Source: a virus. Taken from it: 38,852 bases of DNA. The notes under the pieces were generated by a model, which was not told the DNA's origin, did not search any database, and worked only from the letters and a program-made list of their open reading frames with translations. Numbering within the stretch: position 1 is the first letter of the stretch; each line of letters begins with the position of its first letter. The stretch is taken from IMG/VR virus record IMGVR_UViG_3300030099_004535, positions 1 to 38,852 of that record; one strand, given 5' to 3'. Position numbers and translations under genes: made by a program. Below, piece after piece: positions 7,821-25,286 of this stretch.

Positions 7821-8105
7821 TTATTTCCTCTTAAATGGTATTACGTTAGTCGGTTTACTATCATCAAGTTTCTTCTGTAGTTTTTCATCAGGTTGGAAAA
7901 CTACTTCTGTAGTGTCTTCGACACTGACAACTTGAATAGGGTTGAAGAGAAACTTCTCGGGCATGTGGTAGTACACATACTCAAGAGCATCATTTAGAGT
8001 TGGAAATCCGCCTACGATTTGTGTGACCCTGTTAAACTTGTAGAATACAATGTGTTCTTTATCGAGAGCCTCTACGTGGACTTGAATTATTTCTCCTTTC
8101 TTCAT
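7821..8105 (-). CDS. Unknown small protein, first gene of replication operon
   Basis: 94 residues, mixed beta/alpha, with a basic C-terminal tail (VIPFKRK). No family recognised. It is the promoter-proximal gene of the minus-strand replication operon. The putative promoter TTGACT-16 bp-TATAGA ends only 12 nt before the ATG, so the mRNA leader would be about 5 nt and there is no room for a ribosome-binding site. Confidence 0.65.
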   Translation of the reverse strand: MKKGEIIQVHVEALDKEHIVFYKFNRVTQIVGGFPTLNDALEYVYYHMPEKFLFNPIQVVSVEDTTEVVFQPDEKLQKKLDDSKPTNVIPFKRK

Positions 8106-17109: not shown

Positions 17110-17328
17110 ATGACATTGAGATTAGATGGGTCAGTGTCTAATTTGGCTGATAGCCCTTGCACTGGAGTGTGTTCGACGACACAATTTGGACACAAAAGGT
17201 GTAAAGGTTGCGGCAGATACGACTTTGAGATAGTTTCTTCTTATTGGAGTGAACTCACAGAGTTAGAACGTAAACTAATAAACCTAAGAAATGCAGCTCA
17301 AGGTTTCAAAATTAGACATTTACGCTAA
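17110..17328 (+). CDS. DUF1289-family protein
   Basis: 72 residues. The pattern SPCTGVC (Cys17, Cys21), CKGCGR (Cys31, Cys34) and a following helix with Trp is the signature of DUF1289, a small cysteine-rich family common in proteobacteria. Cellular function is unknown; metal binding is likely from the four cysteines. In a phage it is probably host-derived. No Shine-Dalgarno; see the promoter just upstream. Confidence 0.75.
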   Translation: MTLRLDGSVSNLADSPCTGVCSTTQFGHKRCKGCGRYDFEIVSSYWSELTELERKLINLRNAAQGFKIRHLR

Positions 17329-18449: not shown

Positions 18450-18633
18450 TATCTTCGTATATCTCTTTTTGAGCTCGTCGCTTGTCCTCTTTAGAAAGCT
18501 TGTCAAGTATCCCAACATCTTGTAGCTGCGGCTTGTAGGTTTTCCATATGTTTGCCTTGTCGTTTTTCCAATACCAACTTACCATCCCGAGCGACTCGCT
18601 GGTATGTCCGAATATGTAGCGTGGGGTTTTCAA
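18385..18633 (-). CDS. Unknown 82-residue protein, last gene of micro-operon
   Basis: Begins with TTG immediately after the TAG of the upstream gene, with no gap. Aromatic N-terminal half and a strongly basic C-terminus (KKVARPVVRSRFRA). The 3' end overlaps the small terminase gene on the other strand. No family recognised; basic composition contrasts with its acidic operon neighbours. Confidence 0.5.
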   Translation of the reverse strand: MKTPRYIFGHTSESLGMVSWYWKNDKANIWKTYKPQLQDVGILDKLSKEDKRRAQKEIYEDIMGREYPKKVARPVVRSRFRA

Positions 18634-21739: not shown

Positions 21740-22141
21740 ATGGCAAAAAGCGAAACTAATTTTTGGCAACAAGTCAAGAAAAATCTTAAAGAGTTTCAAT
21801 GGCTACGCCTTGAGTCTTGGGCATCTCAGGGCGTTCCCGACTTGTTAGGCACAACTAAAAATGGGCAACTCTTTACTGTTGAATTGAAAGTAATAAAAAG
21901 TAATAAACCAAACATCTCGCCACATCAAATTGCTTTCCACTTACAGCGTAAAAACTCGCCGTGTTTTATCCTGATTTCGTCCCTCGTCCAATCAACCTCC
22001 AAAAAATCTCAGCTCTATCTAGTTCCTTCGTCCGAGCTAGAAAATCTTTTGGACGAAGGTCTTTCGTCCAAGTATCTCTGTTCTTCGTTTGCTGATGTTG
22101 GTCAAAGGATTAAAAATTATTGGGGGGATTGTGGGGGGTAG
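21740..22141 (+). CDS. VRR-NUC-type nuclease
   Basis: 133 residues. GVPDLLG (Asp34), FTVELK (Glu48 and Lys50) and the following Gln63 (SPHQIAF) make the PD-(D/E)XK core of VRR-NUC/Holliday-junction-resolvase-like nucleases, often encoded by phages as a single domain. It probably cuts branched or recombining DNA. It is the only plus-strand gene in the accessory block and diverges from the micro-operon. TATACT ends 10 nt before the ATG and there is no Shine-Dalgarno, so its mRNA leader would be about 3 nt. Confidence 0.8.
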   Translation: MAKSETNFWQQVKKNLKEFQWLRLESWASQGVPDLLGTTKNGQLFTVELKVIKSNKPNISPHQIAFHLQRKNSPCFILISSLVQSTSKKSQLYLVPSSELENLLDEGLSSKYLCSSFADVGQRIKNYWGDCGG

Positions 22142-22152
22142 GCTTGTCGCTT
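22141..22152 (+). repeat. Solo half-copy of accessory hairpin arm
   Basis: GGCTTGTCGCTT matches the right arm of the hairpin at 25077-25135. No matching left arm was seen nearby, so it looks like a decayed or recombined copy just after the nuclease stop. Confidence 0.4.
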
Positions 22153-22210
22153 CATTGTTGATTTCCTGAACTCACCGAAGCCATCTGGCTTCAGGGCTTC
22201 AGGACGAAAA

Positions 22211-22242
22211 AAAGCCCGAACAGCTGAAGCCATTCGGGCTTT
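22211..22242. terminator. Bidirectional terminator
   Basis: AAAGCCCGAA (22211-22220) pairs with TTCGGGCTTT (22233-22242). On the minus strand a run of Ts follows, ending the gene at 22264-22434; on the plus strand it can end the nuclease transcript. Confidence 0.8.
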
Positions 22243-22263
22243 ATGATTAACAAGCTCTGAAGT

Positions 22264-22434
22264 TTATTCGCGTGAATTTTTAGTGATATGGTCTGCAAAT
22301 CTTTCTCTATTAAATCTCGGGTTATCCGTCTTCAATAGATTTTCGAAATCTTTTCGAAACTCTGCAGAAACACCTCTTTTGTGTTCAGCAAATAAATTGG
22401 CGAACTTTATATAATACTTTCTTGATAAGGGCAT
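22264..22434 (-). CDS. Small phage protein of a recurrent family (56 residues)
   Basis: ATG at 22434 has AGGAG 8-9 nt upstream. The protein (MPLSRKYYIKFANLF, then DNPRFNRERFADHI) resembles a short helical protein seen repeatedly in phages with a DNPRFxRERF ending; its function is unknown. It is the sole gene of its transcription unit: promoter at 22544-22572, terminator at 22211-22242. Confidence 0.7.
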   Translation of the reverse strand: MPLSRKYYIKFANLFAEHKRGVSAEFRKDFENLLKTDNPRFNRERFADHITKNSRE

Positions 22435-22543
22435 TATATTTCTCCTATTTATTTAGTTGTGGCAACAACATGGAGTTCAGGGTTCAGTCGTTTTTAAGGC
22501 GTGTTAGTATAGCTATGCTCTCCACTTACTCCACCACATAAGA

Positions 22544-22572
22544 ATTATGGCATATATCTTATAAAATAGCAA
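22544..22572 (-). promoter_or_regulatory. Accessory promoter A
   Basis: TTGCTA (22572-22567), 17-bp spacer with TTATAAGATATA, CATAAT (22549-22544) with an extended TGC before it. The leader of about 100 nt contains an 8-codon reading frame MWWSKWRA starting 4 nt after the -10 box. Confidence 0.6.
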
Positions 22573-22587
22573 GGGGTTTTGGGGTTG

Positions 22588-22646
22588 ATAAAAGCGACGA
22601 GCCATGTCTAGCAAATGAGGAACGAGTGTTGGCTCGTCGCTTTTAT
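22588..22646. repeat. Conserved accessory hairpin, copy A
   Basis: ATAAAAGCGACGAGCCA (22588-22604) pairs perfectly with 22630-22646 around a 25-nt loop. It lies just upstream of promoter A. GC-rich core with A/T tracts at both ends, so it can terminate transcription in both directions. Confidence 0.85.
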
Positions 22647-22696
22647 TATGATGTTTGGGAGCATGGTCGTGCAGCAAGAGACGCTGGGCGTAAAAA

Positions 22697-22726
22697 AAGG
22701 GCGACTACATTTCTGTTGTCGCCCTT
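22697..22726 (-). terminator. Terminator of gene 22772-22921
   Basis: AAGGGCGAC (22697-22705) pairs with GTCGCCCTT (22718-22726); on the minus strand the stem is followed by seven Ts. Confidence 0.8.
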
Positions 22727-22771
22727 CGCCTAGGGTTAAAGGTTAAGAACCTAGGACTTCTTTGGGACTAT

Positions 22772-22921
22772 TTAATTATCATTGAAGTGAACTCCCTTTC
22801 TTAAGCTCTCGTAGTAGTCAGGAGTTAAATTTTCCTTCAAAACTTTAAGAACTAAATCTGCTTGATATTGGTCAACACATTCTATCCAAATCGTGTGAGT
22901 GTATTCTTCGCGTTCTTCCAT
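22772..22921 (-). CDS. Unknown 49-residue acidic protein
   Basis: Start set at the ATG at 22921, preceded by CGAGG; a longer reading to 22981 would cross the promoter. Acidic, with the pattern YTHTIWIECVDQYQADLVLK (strand then helix). Not recognised. It has its own promoter and terminator. Confidence 0.65.
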   Translation of the reverse strand: MEEREEYTHTIWIECVDQYQADLVLKVLKENLTPDYYESLRKGVHFNDN

Positions 22922-22951
22922 GTTTACCTCGTTGTTGTTAATCAATAATGT

Positions 22952-22981
22952 ATTATGGCATATGTCCCATAAAAAAGTCAA
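22952..22981 (-). promoter_or_regulatory. Accessory promoter B
   Basis: TTGACT (22981-22976), 18-bp spacer, CATAAT (22957-22952) with extended TGC. The leader carries GATTAACAAC (22943-22934) and a GAGG ribosome site. Confidence 0.65.
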
Positions 22982-22997
22982 GGGGAAAAAGGGGTTG

Positions 22998-23056
22998 ATA
23001 AAAGCGACGAGCCATGCGTAGCAAACGAGGTACGAGTGTTGGCTCGTCGCTTTTAT
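22998..23056. repeat. Conserved accessory hairpin, copy B
   Basis: The same 17-bp stem as copy A (22998-23014 with 23040-23056) and a 25-nt loop nearly identical to that of copy A, implying recent duplication or gene conversion. Confidence 0.85.
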
Positions 23057-23108
23057 TATGATTTTTTCCCGCTACGGAGGAACGCCTCAAAAACGCTGGG
23101 GCATAAAA

Positions 23109-23143
23109 AAAGGGACGACTAACATCTCTGCTGTCGTCCCTTT
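23109..23143 (-). terminator. Terminator of gene 23205-23477
   Basis: AAAGGGACGAC (23109-23119) pairs with GTCGTCCCTTT (23133-23143); a T-run follows on the minus strand. Adjacent ACGCTGGG is shared with the terminator region near 22681. Confidence 0.8.
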
Positions 23144-23204
23144 GCCTAAGCTGAAAAAAAATTGAAAAGACTTAGGACTTCGTGGGAAAATTACTTCCTC
23201 ATAA

Positions 23205-23477
23205 TCATGACACCACCTCTCCTAAGTTTTGTTGTTGCACTCCTTCGGCGTAATCGTCGAAGCCCATATCTAAGAACACACTACCGCTTCCGAAAGATAA
23301 CTGTACTCTCATTTCAATATCATTGTGAACAAAGTCCATAATGACTGGGAATAAAGTATCTTCGGTAAAGTCCTCGAAGAACTCATCAGTAATCGTTCTA
23401 TTCCTACCTTCGTCAATGGACTTTTGATTAATCCTTTTGACATCTTGGTAGGTCATAAAGCTAACTGTGTTATTCAT
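23205..23477 (-). CDS. Unknown 90-residue acidic protein
   Basis: Acidic with a Phe/Asp-rich centre (FFEDFTEDTLFPVIMDFV). Not recognised. The ATG lies exactly 7 nt beyond the -10 box of a strong promoter and no Shine-Dalgarno is present, so translation of a leaderless mRNA is predicted. Confidence 0.65.
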   Translation of the reverse strand: MNNTVSFMTYQDVKRINQKSIDEGRNRTITDEFFEDFTEDTLFPVIMDFVHNDIEMRVQLSFGSGSVFLDMGFDDYAEGVQQQNLGEVVS

Positions 23478-23483
23478 ACATAA

Positions 23484-23512
23484 ATATTAGGATATATCTC
23501 ATAATATGTCAA
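23484..23512 (-). promoter_or_regulatory. Accessory promoter C (leaderless)
   Basis: Perfect TTGACA (23512-23507), 17-bp spacer containing TTATGAGATATA, TAATAT (23489-23484). Predicted start of transcription coincides with the A of the ATG at 23477. Confidence 0.7.
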
Positions 23513-23530
23513 GGGGGATTTGTGGGGGTT

Positions 23531-23585
23531 AAAAGCGACGAGCCAACAGTGACGAGGGACGAGTAAGCGTTGGCTCGTCGCTTTT
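23531..23585. repeat. Conserved accessory hairpin, copy C
   Basis: AAAAGCGACGAGCCAAC (23531-23547) pairs with 23569-23585 around a 21-nt loop. It lies immediately upstream of promoter C. Confidence 0.85.
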
Positions 23586-23643
23586 ATCATGATTTTTCTG
23601 GGCTGCAGGATGGTGTGGCTGCTGGGGAAATGACAGATATGAA

Positions 23644-23667
23644 AAAGGGAGACCGAAGTCTCCCTTT
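23644..23667 (-). terminator. UUCG-tetraloop terminator
   Basis: AAAGGGAGAC (23644-23653) pairs with GTCTCCCTTT (23658-23667). On the minus strand the loop is C(UUCG)G, an exceptionally stable tetraloop, and Ts follow. Confidence 0.85.
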
Positions 23668-23692
23668 CCATGATTGACAACAACATCATTCT

Positions 23693-24082
23693 TTAGTCCA
23701 TAGGAACAAATACAGGGGGTTGTAGATATTCTTCTGTTTTAAGAAGTCCCTTAGGCAATCTAATACTTTGCATGTAGTATTCAATCGGCATGATTGGGGA
23801 AGTGTTGTTCCCTTGGTTATCAGTGCCGACAACGATACCTCTGCCAAAATAGGCGTTATCGTTAAAACTAAAAGCATAGTTTTCGTCAATCAATAATCCC
23901 TCATCATCAATGTAAATAACATCAGTGTTATCAGGATTTGAATAATCTCTAACCGCGTCTATACAGTTGACATCTTTAATGTCAGTGGACAGAAGCTTAT
24001 AGATTTTATCTAAGCCCAACTCACTGCCTACCGCTACTTGAGCGACAGTCTTGAAGTCAGGTTGAATAATATAAATGTTCAT
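23693..24082 (-). CDS. DUF3846-like protein (tentative)
   Basis: 129 residues, soluble, acidic. The layout (IDDEGLLIDENYAFSFNDNA, then GRGIVVGTDNQGN) resembles the DUF3846 pattern of an acidic strand, an N-A/P segment and a Gly-Val-Val-Gly strand. Function of that family is unknown. ATG at 24082 follows GAGG and the GATTAACAAC leader motif. Single-gene unit with its own promoter and terminator. Confidence 0.6.
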   Translation of the reverse strand: MNIYIIQPDFKTVAQVAVGSELGLDKIYKLLSTDIKDVNCIDAVRDYSNPDNTDVIYIDDEGLLIDENYAFSFNDNAYFGRGIVVGTDNQGNNTSPIMPIEYYMQSIRLPKGLLKTEEYLQPPVFVPMD

Positions 24083-24112
24083 ATATTCCTCTTTGTTGTT
24101 AATCGAATTACG

Positions 24113-24141
24113 ATTATAAGATATTTTTTATAAAAATGGAA
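24113..24141 (-). promoter_or_regulatory. Accessory promoter D
   Basis: TTCCAT (24141-24136), 17-bp spacer, perfect TATAAT (24118-24113); the leader has GATTAACAAC (24104-24095). Confidence 0.6.
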
Positions 24142-24158
24142 GGGGAAAAGGGGTTGAC

Positions 24159-24219
24159 AGAAAAGCGACGAGCCGACAGTTATTTCCTAATGTGTCCTTT
24201 GTCGGCTCGTCGCTTTTCT
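24159..24219. repeat. Conserved accessory hairpin, copy D
   Basis: A perfect 20-bp stem (24159-24178 with 24200-24219) containing AAAAGCGACGAGCC, with a 21-nt loop. It lies between the gene at 24225 and promoter D and probably also terminates that gene, since no other terminator is present there. Confidence 0.85.
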
Positions 24220-24224
24220 TATGA

Positions 24225-24446
24225 TTAGACCTTAGGTTCTTTGTACCAAACTCTGACTTTGCCATTCGGTTGAATTTTTAAAGCGGGTAGTTTGTTAAGA
24301 CCTCTAAGAGCATTTGCCAAAGACACTGCCCTCGGATAACTTTCCATAAGTACGCTATCGCCAACCTTCATACACTCGGCAGTAAATTTAATCTTGCCTT
24401 GCTTACTCTCGATTGGGATGCCCTTTTCTATTTTATATGTCTCCAT
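24225..24446 (-). CDS. Unknown 73-residue basic protein
   Basis: ATG at 24446 has GGGAGG upstream. Lys-rich, beta-alpha-beta, ending KVRVWYKEPKV, with a central helix (RAVSLANALRGLNKL); this could bind nucleic acid. Not recognised. Confidence 0.65.
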   Translation of the reverse strand: METYKIEKGIPIESKQGKIKFTAECMKVGDSVLMESYPRAVSLANALRGLNKLPALKIQPNGKVRVWYKEPKV

Positions 24447-24573
24447 TTATTTCCTCCCAACGCATGTCGTCTCGAATCTCTTGCAGTCTGTGAATTTCTC
24501 TGCTGAGTTCTCGTTTCTGTGCTTTCTTTTCTTTAATCATCTTGTCGATTTGTGTAGATAATAAAAATGTCAT
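24433..24573 (-). CDS. Possible 46-residue coiled-coil protein
   Basis: An open frame with heptad-like charged helix (DKMIKEKKAQKRELSREIHR) overlapping the next gene by 14 bp. It begins inside the T-run of the preceding terminator and has no Shine-Dalgarno, so expression would need read-through. Kept at low confidence. Confidence 0.4.
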   Translation of the reverse strand: MTFLLSTQIDKMIKEKKAQKRELSREIHRLQEIRDDMRWEEINGDI

Positions 24574-24585
24574 AATAAAAAAAGG

Positions 24586-24601
24586 GGAGTCCTAAGACTC
24601 C
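24586..24601 (-). terminator. Terminator overlapping a stop codon
   Basis: GGAGTC (24586-24591), loop CTAA, GACTCC (24596-24601); seven Ts follow on the minus strand. The stem includes the last codons and stop of the gene ending at 24592. Confidence 0.7.
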
Positions 24602-24750
24602 TCCTTTTCCTCCTCTGTAATTTTAAGTTGATTATCAAGAAACGCTTTGACAAGTCTTAGGTTTCTCTCGTTAAGTTGGGCAATGCTACCTATAGCACTG
24701 CCCACCATTGCATCTTGAAAAGATGACTCTTTATCTAAATCAATAACCAT
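24592..24750 (-). CDS. Unknown 52-residue helical acidic protein
   Basis: ATG at 24750 overlaps the upstream TAA (TAATG). Helical with an acidic tail (ITEEEKEES). Second gene of the unit driven by promoter E. Not recognised. Confidence 0.6.
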   Translation of the reverse strand: MVIDLDKESSFQDAMVGSAIGSIAQLNERNLRLVKAFLDNQLKITEEEKEES

Positions 24751-24941
24751 TAATTTAAATCTCCATTTGGCAATTGAAGATTGTCCATACCTCTAAGAGA
24801 CATGATTTCTTCAACTGCGGTTGTATTTACATTGCCATTGGATACAACGACAACACCATTTATAACTAACTCAGTTAAGTTAGTCTCGACTCCAGCGAGT
24901 TCTCCGCCTTGGTCAAGTTTTAAAACAAAAGTAAATTTCAT
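24750..24941 (-). CDS. Unknown 63-residue protein
   Basis: ATG at 24941 is preceded by CGAGG and the GATTAACAAC leader motif. Beta-rich N-terminus (MKFTFVLKLDQGGEL) and a repeated Val/Asn segment (INGVVVVSNGNVN). Not recognised. Confidence 0.65.
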   Translation of the reverse strand: MKFTFVLKLDQGGELAGVETNLTELVINGVVVVSNGNVNTTAVEEIMSLRGMDNLQLPNGDLN

Positions 24942-24991
24942 ATTTCCTCGTTTAGTTGTTAATCAATATGTATATAATACAGATGTATGTA

Positions 24992-25020
24992 ATATATGCA
25001 AGTATATCTCATAAAGTTTT
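24992..25020 (-). promoter_or_regulatory. Accessory promoter E
   Basis: Weak AAAACT (25020-25015) and ATATAT (24997-24992) boxes, but with the shared motif TTATGAGATATA (25014-25003) in the spacer. Alternative TTGCAT/TATTAT boxes lie just downstream. Leader includes GATTAACAAC (24964-24955). Confidence 0.4.
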
Positions 25021-25076
25021 TAGATTATTTTATTATATAAGATTGCTCTTATATAACTGGGGGGCATAAGGGGGGC

Positions 25077-25135
25077 AAAGCGACAAGCCGACAGTCAAAC
25101 AAGTCGAGGAAACGAGACTGTCGGCTTGTCGCTTT
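25077..25135. repeat. Conserved accessory hairpin, copy E
   Basis: A perfect 20-bp stem (25077-25096 with 25116-25135) and a 19-nt loop. Its core is AAAGCGACAAGCC, one base different from the other copies but changed in both arms, so pairing is preserved. It marks the outer edge of the accessory block. Confidence 0.85.
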
Positions 25136-25286
25136 GATTATGATAGTAGCAGAGGGGGGAGCCCCCCCCAAACAAAATAACATCCATATATACAGGTATA
25201 TAAGTAAAGATATATACAAAAACTCTGGTATCAAAAACTTTGCGTATGACACCCCCCTTATGTAGTATAAGCCGCAGGAGTCCCAG

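Follow-up and report, generated by a model that had tools for sequence, protein, structure and literature searches.

Stem-loops that are joined to promoters and repeated within one genome are described for T4-like phages, where promoter early stem-loops (PeSLs) are said to mediate gene shuffling and are called "composite promoter-terminator motifs" in the title of a paper cited there (excerpts of PMC4503421). PeSL-like motifs outside the T4 group are already on record: in the archaeal virus HGTV-1 a TATA-like box with an inverted repeat motif stands before most open reading frames (ORFs) of one part of the genome and has been likened to PeSLs (excerpts of PMC3950731). Cluster O mycobacteriophages carry 17-bp dyad-symmetric repeats of 7-3-7 bp in more than 30 copies genome-wide, about a third of them in coding sequence and their function unknown, and some deletions have been attributed to recombination between copies (excerpts of PMC4351075). 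The parS sites of plasmid pSM19035 consist of contiguous 7-bp repeats (WATCACW), direct or inverted, which overlap promoters (excerpts of PMC9499535). Here we analyze an array of five long hairpins, named A to E, each in front of a putative small minus-strand transcription unit, in the IMG/VR virus record IMGVR_UViG_3300030099_004535, whose full 38,852 bases (GC 37.5%) we refer to as the window.

Like the T4 PeSLs as excerpted, the array appears to join a stem-loop and a promoter-like sequence in one repeated intergenic module, and it is located where small ORFs form a variable stretch flanked by conserved genes. Unlike them, it has five copies in a single 3-kb array with long perfect arms, a conserved core and loops of 3 to about 143 nt. 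The array would work like the T4 PeSLs yet is not one of them; we do not file it as a PeSL because its phage is not a T4-like myovirus, TerL and portal best matching the HTVC023P/HTVC027P type, and because its junctions give a mixed picture, with one unit deletion standing beside hairpin A in the related locus L022 and the other breakpoints of gene change outside hairpin C not enriched at hairpins. The likeness to the HGTV-1 motifs is one of description, and that virus is archaeal. In contrast to the Cluster O repeats as described in the excerpts, the paired 13-base core of the window is confined to the array and not dispersed.

Five hairpins ahead of small leftward genes

The array consists of small minus-strand genes and hairpins A to E, and is bounded by the plus-strand gene F4 (21740-22141), which is nuclease-like with PHROG matches named DNA helicase, endonuclease and Holliday junction resolvase, and by the plus-strand HNH-TerL genes. 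The hairpins, to which no strand is assigned, are the following.

22588-22646: hairpin A, perfect arms of 17 bp, 25-nt loop
22998-23056: hairpin B, perfect arms of 17 bp, 25-nt loop
23530-23586: hairpin C, perfect arms of 18 bp, 21-nt loop (4 to about 143 nt in other haplotypes)
24159-24219: hairpin D, perfect arms of 20 bp, 21-nt loop, abutting the stop codon of the ORF at 24225-24446
25076-25136: hairpin E, perfect arms of 21 bp, 19-nt loop, A/T in place of G/C in both arms of the core

It is clear that these five hairpins are real and far above chance: the record contains 10 exact copies of the 13-base core AAAGCGACRAGCC, one in each arm, and the core is paired only in the array, and the window holds 22 pairs of complementary 14-mers at hairpin distance compared with 2 in total over 100 dinucleotide shuffles. 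The original prediction, made from the sequence alone, was correct in counting five perfect hairpins, with the adjustment that the arms are 17-21 bp and not 17-20 bp long. It was also correct in noting that the loops of A and B are nearly identical and that one base of copy E is changed in both arms with the pairing kept.

The inner 11 bases of the core have extra single copies at 22142 and 18473. The former is part of a single unpaired arm, GAAGCGACAAGCC (22141-22153, minus strand), which overlaps the stop codon of F4 and is followed by C-tracts. It is kept in 10 of the 10 haplotypes aligned there (see below), L090 and L022 each having a different single base changed, and is perhaps the relic of a sixth element. 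Unpaired single matches to the 11-base core outside the array were seen at 18473 in the window, at 2373 in G002, at 17183 in G003 and at 1188 in G007; in record G001 (59,063 bases) the 11-base core is restricted to the array region.

Read along the minus strand, a typical module runs from the terminator of the preceding unit through a variable spacer and ATCATAAT to the hairpin with its left arm, loop and right arm; then come two C-tracts, such as CAACCCCTTTTTCCCC, the -35 and -10, the leader and the gene. The promoter-like and terminator-like sequences, all on the minus strand, are listed here.

22544-22572: promoter-like, unit A, TTGCTA-17-CATAAT
22952-22981: promoter-like, unit B, TTGACT-18-CATAAT
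23484-23512: promoter-like, unit C, TTGACA-17-TAATAT
24113-24141: possible promoter, unit D, weak TTCCAT-17-TATAAT, conserved in relatives, missed by the consensus scan
25032-25060: possible promoter, unit E, AT-rich -10 TATAAT without recognisable -35, missed by the consensus scan
22211-22242: terminator-like stem behind the unit A gene, listed by the consensus scan
22692-22725: terminator-like stem behind the unit B gene
23105-23143: terminator-like stem behind the unit C gene
23642-23667: terminator-like stem behind the unit D gene
24586-24601: terminator-like hairpin inside unit E, listed by the consensus scan, without the array element

A promoter had been predicted directly after each hairpin, which describes units A, B and C well, fits unit D with its good -10 and weak -35 less well, and falls short at unit E, where only a -10 can be recognised. 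The consensus promoter scan picks A, B and C, not D or E, and is unspecific in the window (22 found and 24.3 expected); the better support for these putative promoters comes from relatives, where the segment between hairpin and -10 is conserved at the corresponding position. As predicted for most units, ordinary terminator-like stems stand behind the genes of units A to D. Such stems precede hairpins A, B and C, none of these three stems being listed by the consensus scan, and hairpin D sits immediately after a stop codon. The one to three genes per unit that had been proposed do not cover unit E, which has four ORFs and the internal terminator-like hairpin. The leader of unit A (22435-22543 in the window) has a long form in the window, L014, L015 and L090 and a short form in L013, L033, L100, L019 and L020. 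A very small gene, or one since lost, may be contained in the long form.

Relatives carrying the array

TerL of the window is 61-63% identical to TerL of 023Pt_psg01, HTVC027P, DSL-LC04 and HTVC023P, the portal is 48-57% identical to theirs, and PHROG matches in the window comprise DNA polymerase, helicases, primase, exonuclease, an endonuclease VII-like HNH protein, TerL, portal and tail fibre. By its protein matches, the phage of the window is HTVC023P/HTVC027P-like.

A scan of IMG/VR with the paired pattern gave 12 stretches on 11 contigs, and a TerL search gave 131 relatives, from which 80 loci were kept. Where TerL is 97-100% identical, the array is found in 9 of the 9 loci that cover the region (L023, L034 and L065 end short of it). 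Eleven further non-identical IMG/VR haplotypes carry the array, and 12 haplotypes were compared: the window, L100 (the record of L009 and L012), L013, L014, L015, L090 (the record of L016), L017, L021 (the contig of L010), L033 (the contig of L018), L019, L020 and L022. L011, with hairpins identical to those of the window, was excluded from these counts. Position A is covered by 10 haplotypes, B and C by 12, D by 9 (with another 3 lacking D) and E by 11.

A looser pattern gave 27 stretches, including a second clade of the same design with different arms, ACAAGCGACAAGC or near variants. Its TerL is 73-86% identical where encoded (best segments, 6 of 10 loci), and L026, L029, L031 and L032, with TerL 82-84% identical, also belong to it. 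TTGACA or TTGACG follows many of these hairpins at a similar distance; other hairpins have no clear promoter. In L222-L232 and L029 an extra direct arm copy (ACAAGCGACAAGT...CAGAT) stands before many second-clade hairpins, making three copies in a row. One further relative is recorded under Gammaproteobacteria, and L229, a 117 kb contig with the core pattern and with no match for the marker proteins, was left out of the comparison.

No core-bearing hairpin is listed among the TerL loci with 60-68% identity (59 of 80, many of which stop before the region), and none is present upstream of TerL in HTVC027P, HTVC023P, DSL-LC04 and 023Pt_psg01; stems of 10-13 bp stand there in three of the four, HTVC027P having none. 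A DNA similarity search of the array against the phage collection gave no match. In the open-licence literature searched, no title or abstract describes the array or CAAGC heptads, and the words hairpin, stem-loop, terminator and promoter do not occur in the main text of PMC9599517 (heptad was not among the words searched); hairpin, heptad and promoter are all absent from PMC11066056.

Conserved pairing and strand polarity

For quantification of the pairing, 16 stem pairs were aligned for 58 elements (54 of clade 1 and 4 of clade 2), with GCNAC in the left arm and GTNGC in the right arm as anchors. In agreement with the conserved pairing originally proposed, 897 of the 928 cells are Watson-Crick pairs, 31 are mismatched and none is G-U. 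The mismatches are located at both stem ends and at two inner positions, one of which has C opposite T in seven C copies and one D copy. Among 23 distinct stems 352 of 368 pairs are formed, compared with a mean of 279 and a maximum of 304 over 2000 reassignments of the right arms. Six long-loop C elements retain 14-16 of the 16 pairs; they are seen in a syntenic alignment but were excised using the arm motifs. At position C of L100 (7791-7961), L021 (698-868) and L020 (12518-12688) the loop of about 143 nt resembles a long inverted repeat, with the outer arms kept.

The predicted RNA fold of the hairpins is -27 to -40 kcal/mol on either strand, and the complete lack of G-U in the stems fits a fold that would be required on both strands. 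The flanks have a polarity: of 67 elements, 49 have more T within 8 bases past the core on the antisense side than on the sense side, 18 have equal numbers on both and none has fewer, these counts not being independent as the flanks are inherited. No related phage was found with identical gene content and the hairpins absent or unpaired.

Gene-content differences between conserved modules

The genes and ORFs of the units, all on the minus strand, are given below; no unit gene has a Pfam family above the cut-off.

22264-22434: unit A gene, family F2, 56 aa, no Pfam or PHROG match
22772-22921: unit B gene, family F12, 49 aa, with F11 (about 98 aa) in its place or alongside it in relatives
23205-23477: unit C gene, family F5, 90 aa
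23693-24082: unit D gene, family F6, 129 aa, DUF3846-like just under the cut-off, co-occurring with hairpin D
24225-24446: unit E gene, family F7, 73 aa
24433-24573: unit E ORF, 46 aa, one weak PHROG match of unknown function
24592-24750: unit E gene, family F10, 52 aa
24750-24941: unit E ORF, 63 aa, several relatives having a 63-aa F8 gene at the same place

The second slot holds F12 in the window, L014, L015 and, in a divergent form, L022; it holds F11 in L100, L090, L033, L019 and L020, and both F11 and F12 in L013. F5 is listed in 11 of the 12 haplotypes, the ORF caller having chosen other ORFs there in L015. Hairpin D and F6 are jointly present in 9 of the 12 haplotypes and jointly absent in 3 (L013, L021 and L090), where a different terminator-like hairpin with T6 after it stands ahead of a -10 box, which suggests that hairpin D is functionally replaced there. 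The long and short loops of hairpin A occur with F11 and F12 in all four combinations (window; L100, L090, L033 and L020; L015; L019), and a hairpin with a tgac loop is found at A of L014, at B of L090 and L022 and, with arms one base shorter, at C of L022. Promoter segments have their nearest neighbour at the same position in 53 of 54 cases, upstream spacers in 50, hairpins in 48 and loops in 43.8 (ties shared); the nearest neighbour is at another position for 6 hairpins, 4 spacers and 1 promoter segment, which is that of the promoterless L022 A.

Comparison of the 12 haplotypes gave 167 clustered breakpoints, many of them shared by descent. Hairpins contain 32 of the 167 (19% and 10% at random, p<0.001), and the proportions near hairpins are 25% and 15% within 20 nt (p<0.001), 25% and 21% within 40 nt (p 0.12) and 33% and 26% within 60 nt (p 0.03). 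Position C, with its variable hairpin, accounts for 22 of these 32. Once it is omitted the excess vanishes (10 of 145 in hairpins compared with 10.0 expected; 17 of 145 and 16.4 within 20 nt), so that hairpin junctions as a rule are not supported. The deletion of the promoter-F2 unit beside hairpin A in L022 is an exception to this pattern. ORF ends were tested in the window alone: of its 16 breakpoints, 7 have an ORF end no more than 15 nt away, where 2.4 would be expected (p 0.006), and 2 are in a hairpin (1.6 expected). The cassette swapping of the original prediction is supported as replacement, gain and loss of genes between conserved modules, with a few hairpin alleles shared between positions, and not as regards hairpin-bounded junctions.

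Proposed function of the array

The explanation we favour, with evenly balanced confidence, is an insulator fold before each promoter, with the whole block serving as homology for the exchange of small genes. The region would be a series of short transcription units, read leftward and probably early, each opening with a block composed of the hairpin, the C-tracts, a sigma70-like promoter and the leader, where hairpins A to C would follow the terminator of the upstream unit and D would replace one. The hairpin would act as a transcription insulator, with a fold formed from either strand, and would halt polymerase that comes in from the unit upstream; its tails suggest that it would be more effective still against antisense polymerase from the promoter side. 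Insulation is the best-supported role, unproven and made plausible by the pairing and the T-tails. Since the block is repeated along the array and kept in related phages, the homology patch is likely the whole terminator-hairpin-promoter block, roughly 200 bp, which would lead to ORFs between blocks being replaced, gained and lost and to some hairpin alleles being shared between positions. The anatomy, the conserved pairing, the differences in gene content and the shared alleles are observed; that the promoters are active and expressed early, that the hairpins terminate transcription and that genes move by homologous recombination is our inference.

Several points weigh against this explanation. 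An intrinsic terminator would normally have a shorter loop than the 19-25 nt found here, or the up to 143 nt of position C, and ordinary terminators already precede hairpins A to C, which would make a second sense terminator redundant. The T count on the sense side is low at hairpin E (mean 3.36 of 8) and in the second clade (3.08 of 8), so sense termination is doubtful there. The lack of G-U pairs is only suggestive, because ordinary terminators in the same loci are also poor in G-U (10 of 213 pairs and 0 of 75 in one set, unevenly spread and a weak control). In the stem alignment the anchoring itself accounts for the pairing of 4 of the 16 columns; the elements are also related to one another, and most of them were initially detected as perfect stems. 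The promoter scan is without power in the window, and the breakpoints show no excess in hairpins outside position C. Finally, all array haplotypes are IMG/VR assemblies, where repeats can yield chimeric joins that mimic shuffling, and for the shuffling part such chimeras are a real risk.

CAAGCNN heptads and other explanations

The best of the competing explanations, which we nevertheless regard as unlikely, is that the arms are binding sites of a phage or host DNA-binding protein, resembling two heptads (CAAGC-GA-CAAGC) placed in inverted order, so that regulation would act at the DNA level and the hairpin would be partly a by-product. Runs of CAAGCNN, in direct order, are found in the same part of the genome in some more distant relatives, including the cultured HTVC027P. 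In 76 TerL-chosen loci, many of them without coverage of the region, there are 28 runs of at least three heptads in 8 loci (L092 and L093 being identical there), and TTGACA lies within 25 nt downstream of 10 of the 28 runs compared with 1.25% of random places. The pattern CAAGCNNCAAGCNNCAAGCTTGACA, three heptads and TTGACA, matches at least 120 IMG/VR stretches, and among the matches listed 119 three-heptad loci encode a relative of F4 in 86 cases, of HTVC027P gp33 in 105 and of TerL in 51-53. The second-clade arms contain CAAGCGACAAGC exactly, many with two exact heptads. In 80 motif-chosen loci (L102-L181) 160 of 279 heptad runs have no TTGAC within 25 nt, which means that heptads also stand elsewhere. 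Heptad runs were seen at L096 7925-9145 (HTVC027P) and in L070, L082, L085, L086, L092, L093 and L102-L220, some of them abutting a -35 TTGACA near F4 relatives.

What speaks against a pair of protein sites is that the pairing reaches past the heptads and persists where the heptads change, for which such sites have no need. The clade-1 arms (AAAGCGACRAGCC) match the heptad only with changes, and runs of three heptads are absent from all 12 array haplotypes including the window, from the four loci of clade 2 that were checked and from the 25-kb stretches of HTVC023P, DSL-LC04 and 023Pt_psg01. The likeness to parS of pSM19035, as far as the excerpts describe it, applies to the heptads of the relatives and not to the window, and pSM19035 is a plasmid system with a different heptad. 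No ribbon-helix-helix protein or other known regulator was found by Pfam among the 19 window proteins scanned, a part of the total, and one relative. Binding sites and an insulator fold are compatible readings, and from their sequence, promoter linkage and locus the hairpin arms and the heptads would seem to share an origin. We put forward a wider proposal as speculation and ourselves doubt it: in some HTVC023P/HTVC027P-like phages CAAGCNN may serve as a 7-bp code linked to the promoters of a single array of early genes, as direct runs abutting TTGACA in some (HTVC027P among them) and, in two other clades including that of the window, rearranged into inverted pairs evolving as perfectly paired, G-U-free hairpins, with one phage regulator reading both and the array being a regulated platform that exchanges small, perhaps host-directed genes.

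Less probable again is that the pairing is kept by mutation, one arm templating the correction of the other during replication (quasipalindrome correction), the hairpins being mainly recombination-prone repeats. The absence of G-U in all 928 cells, the perfect pairing of the outer A/T part of the arms as well, and the abrupt shifts of loop length with the arms kept would be expected from such a process; it leaves unexplained the fixed site before promoter-like sequences in two clades and the polarity of the T-tails, and the mismatch at position C persists uncorrected in 7 of 12 haplotypes. That the hairpins are ordinary conserved intergenic terminators without special role in a fast-evolving early region, the differences being divergence, indels and assembly chimeras, we consider improbable, since the same alternative genes recur in separate contigs (F12 and F11, as given above) and an identical hairpin stands at different positions, even if the unenriched breakpoints at A, B, D and E, the window breakpoints at ORF ends and the 48 of 54 nearest hairpin relatives at the same position agree with it.

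Other features of the window

A 94-aa protein encoded at 7821-8105 on the minus strand matches the p6 histone-like family (PF17548) below the curated cut-off (E 0.00033). The Rfam search of the window gave 0 matches at the gathering score, and the tRNA search of the window found none.

Significance for HTVC023P/HTVC027P-like phages

The cultured relatives HTVC023P and HTVC027P infect SAR11, which ranks with the most numerous bacteria in the sea. If the modules work as proposed, PeSL-like cassette exchange would extend to HTVC023P/HTVC027P-like phages, and the array would mark where the fast-changing small genes sit in this group. The heptads give a short sequence handle on the promoters of many uncultivated marine phages, and their presence in HTVC027P makes them testable.

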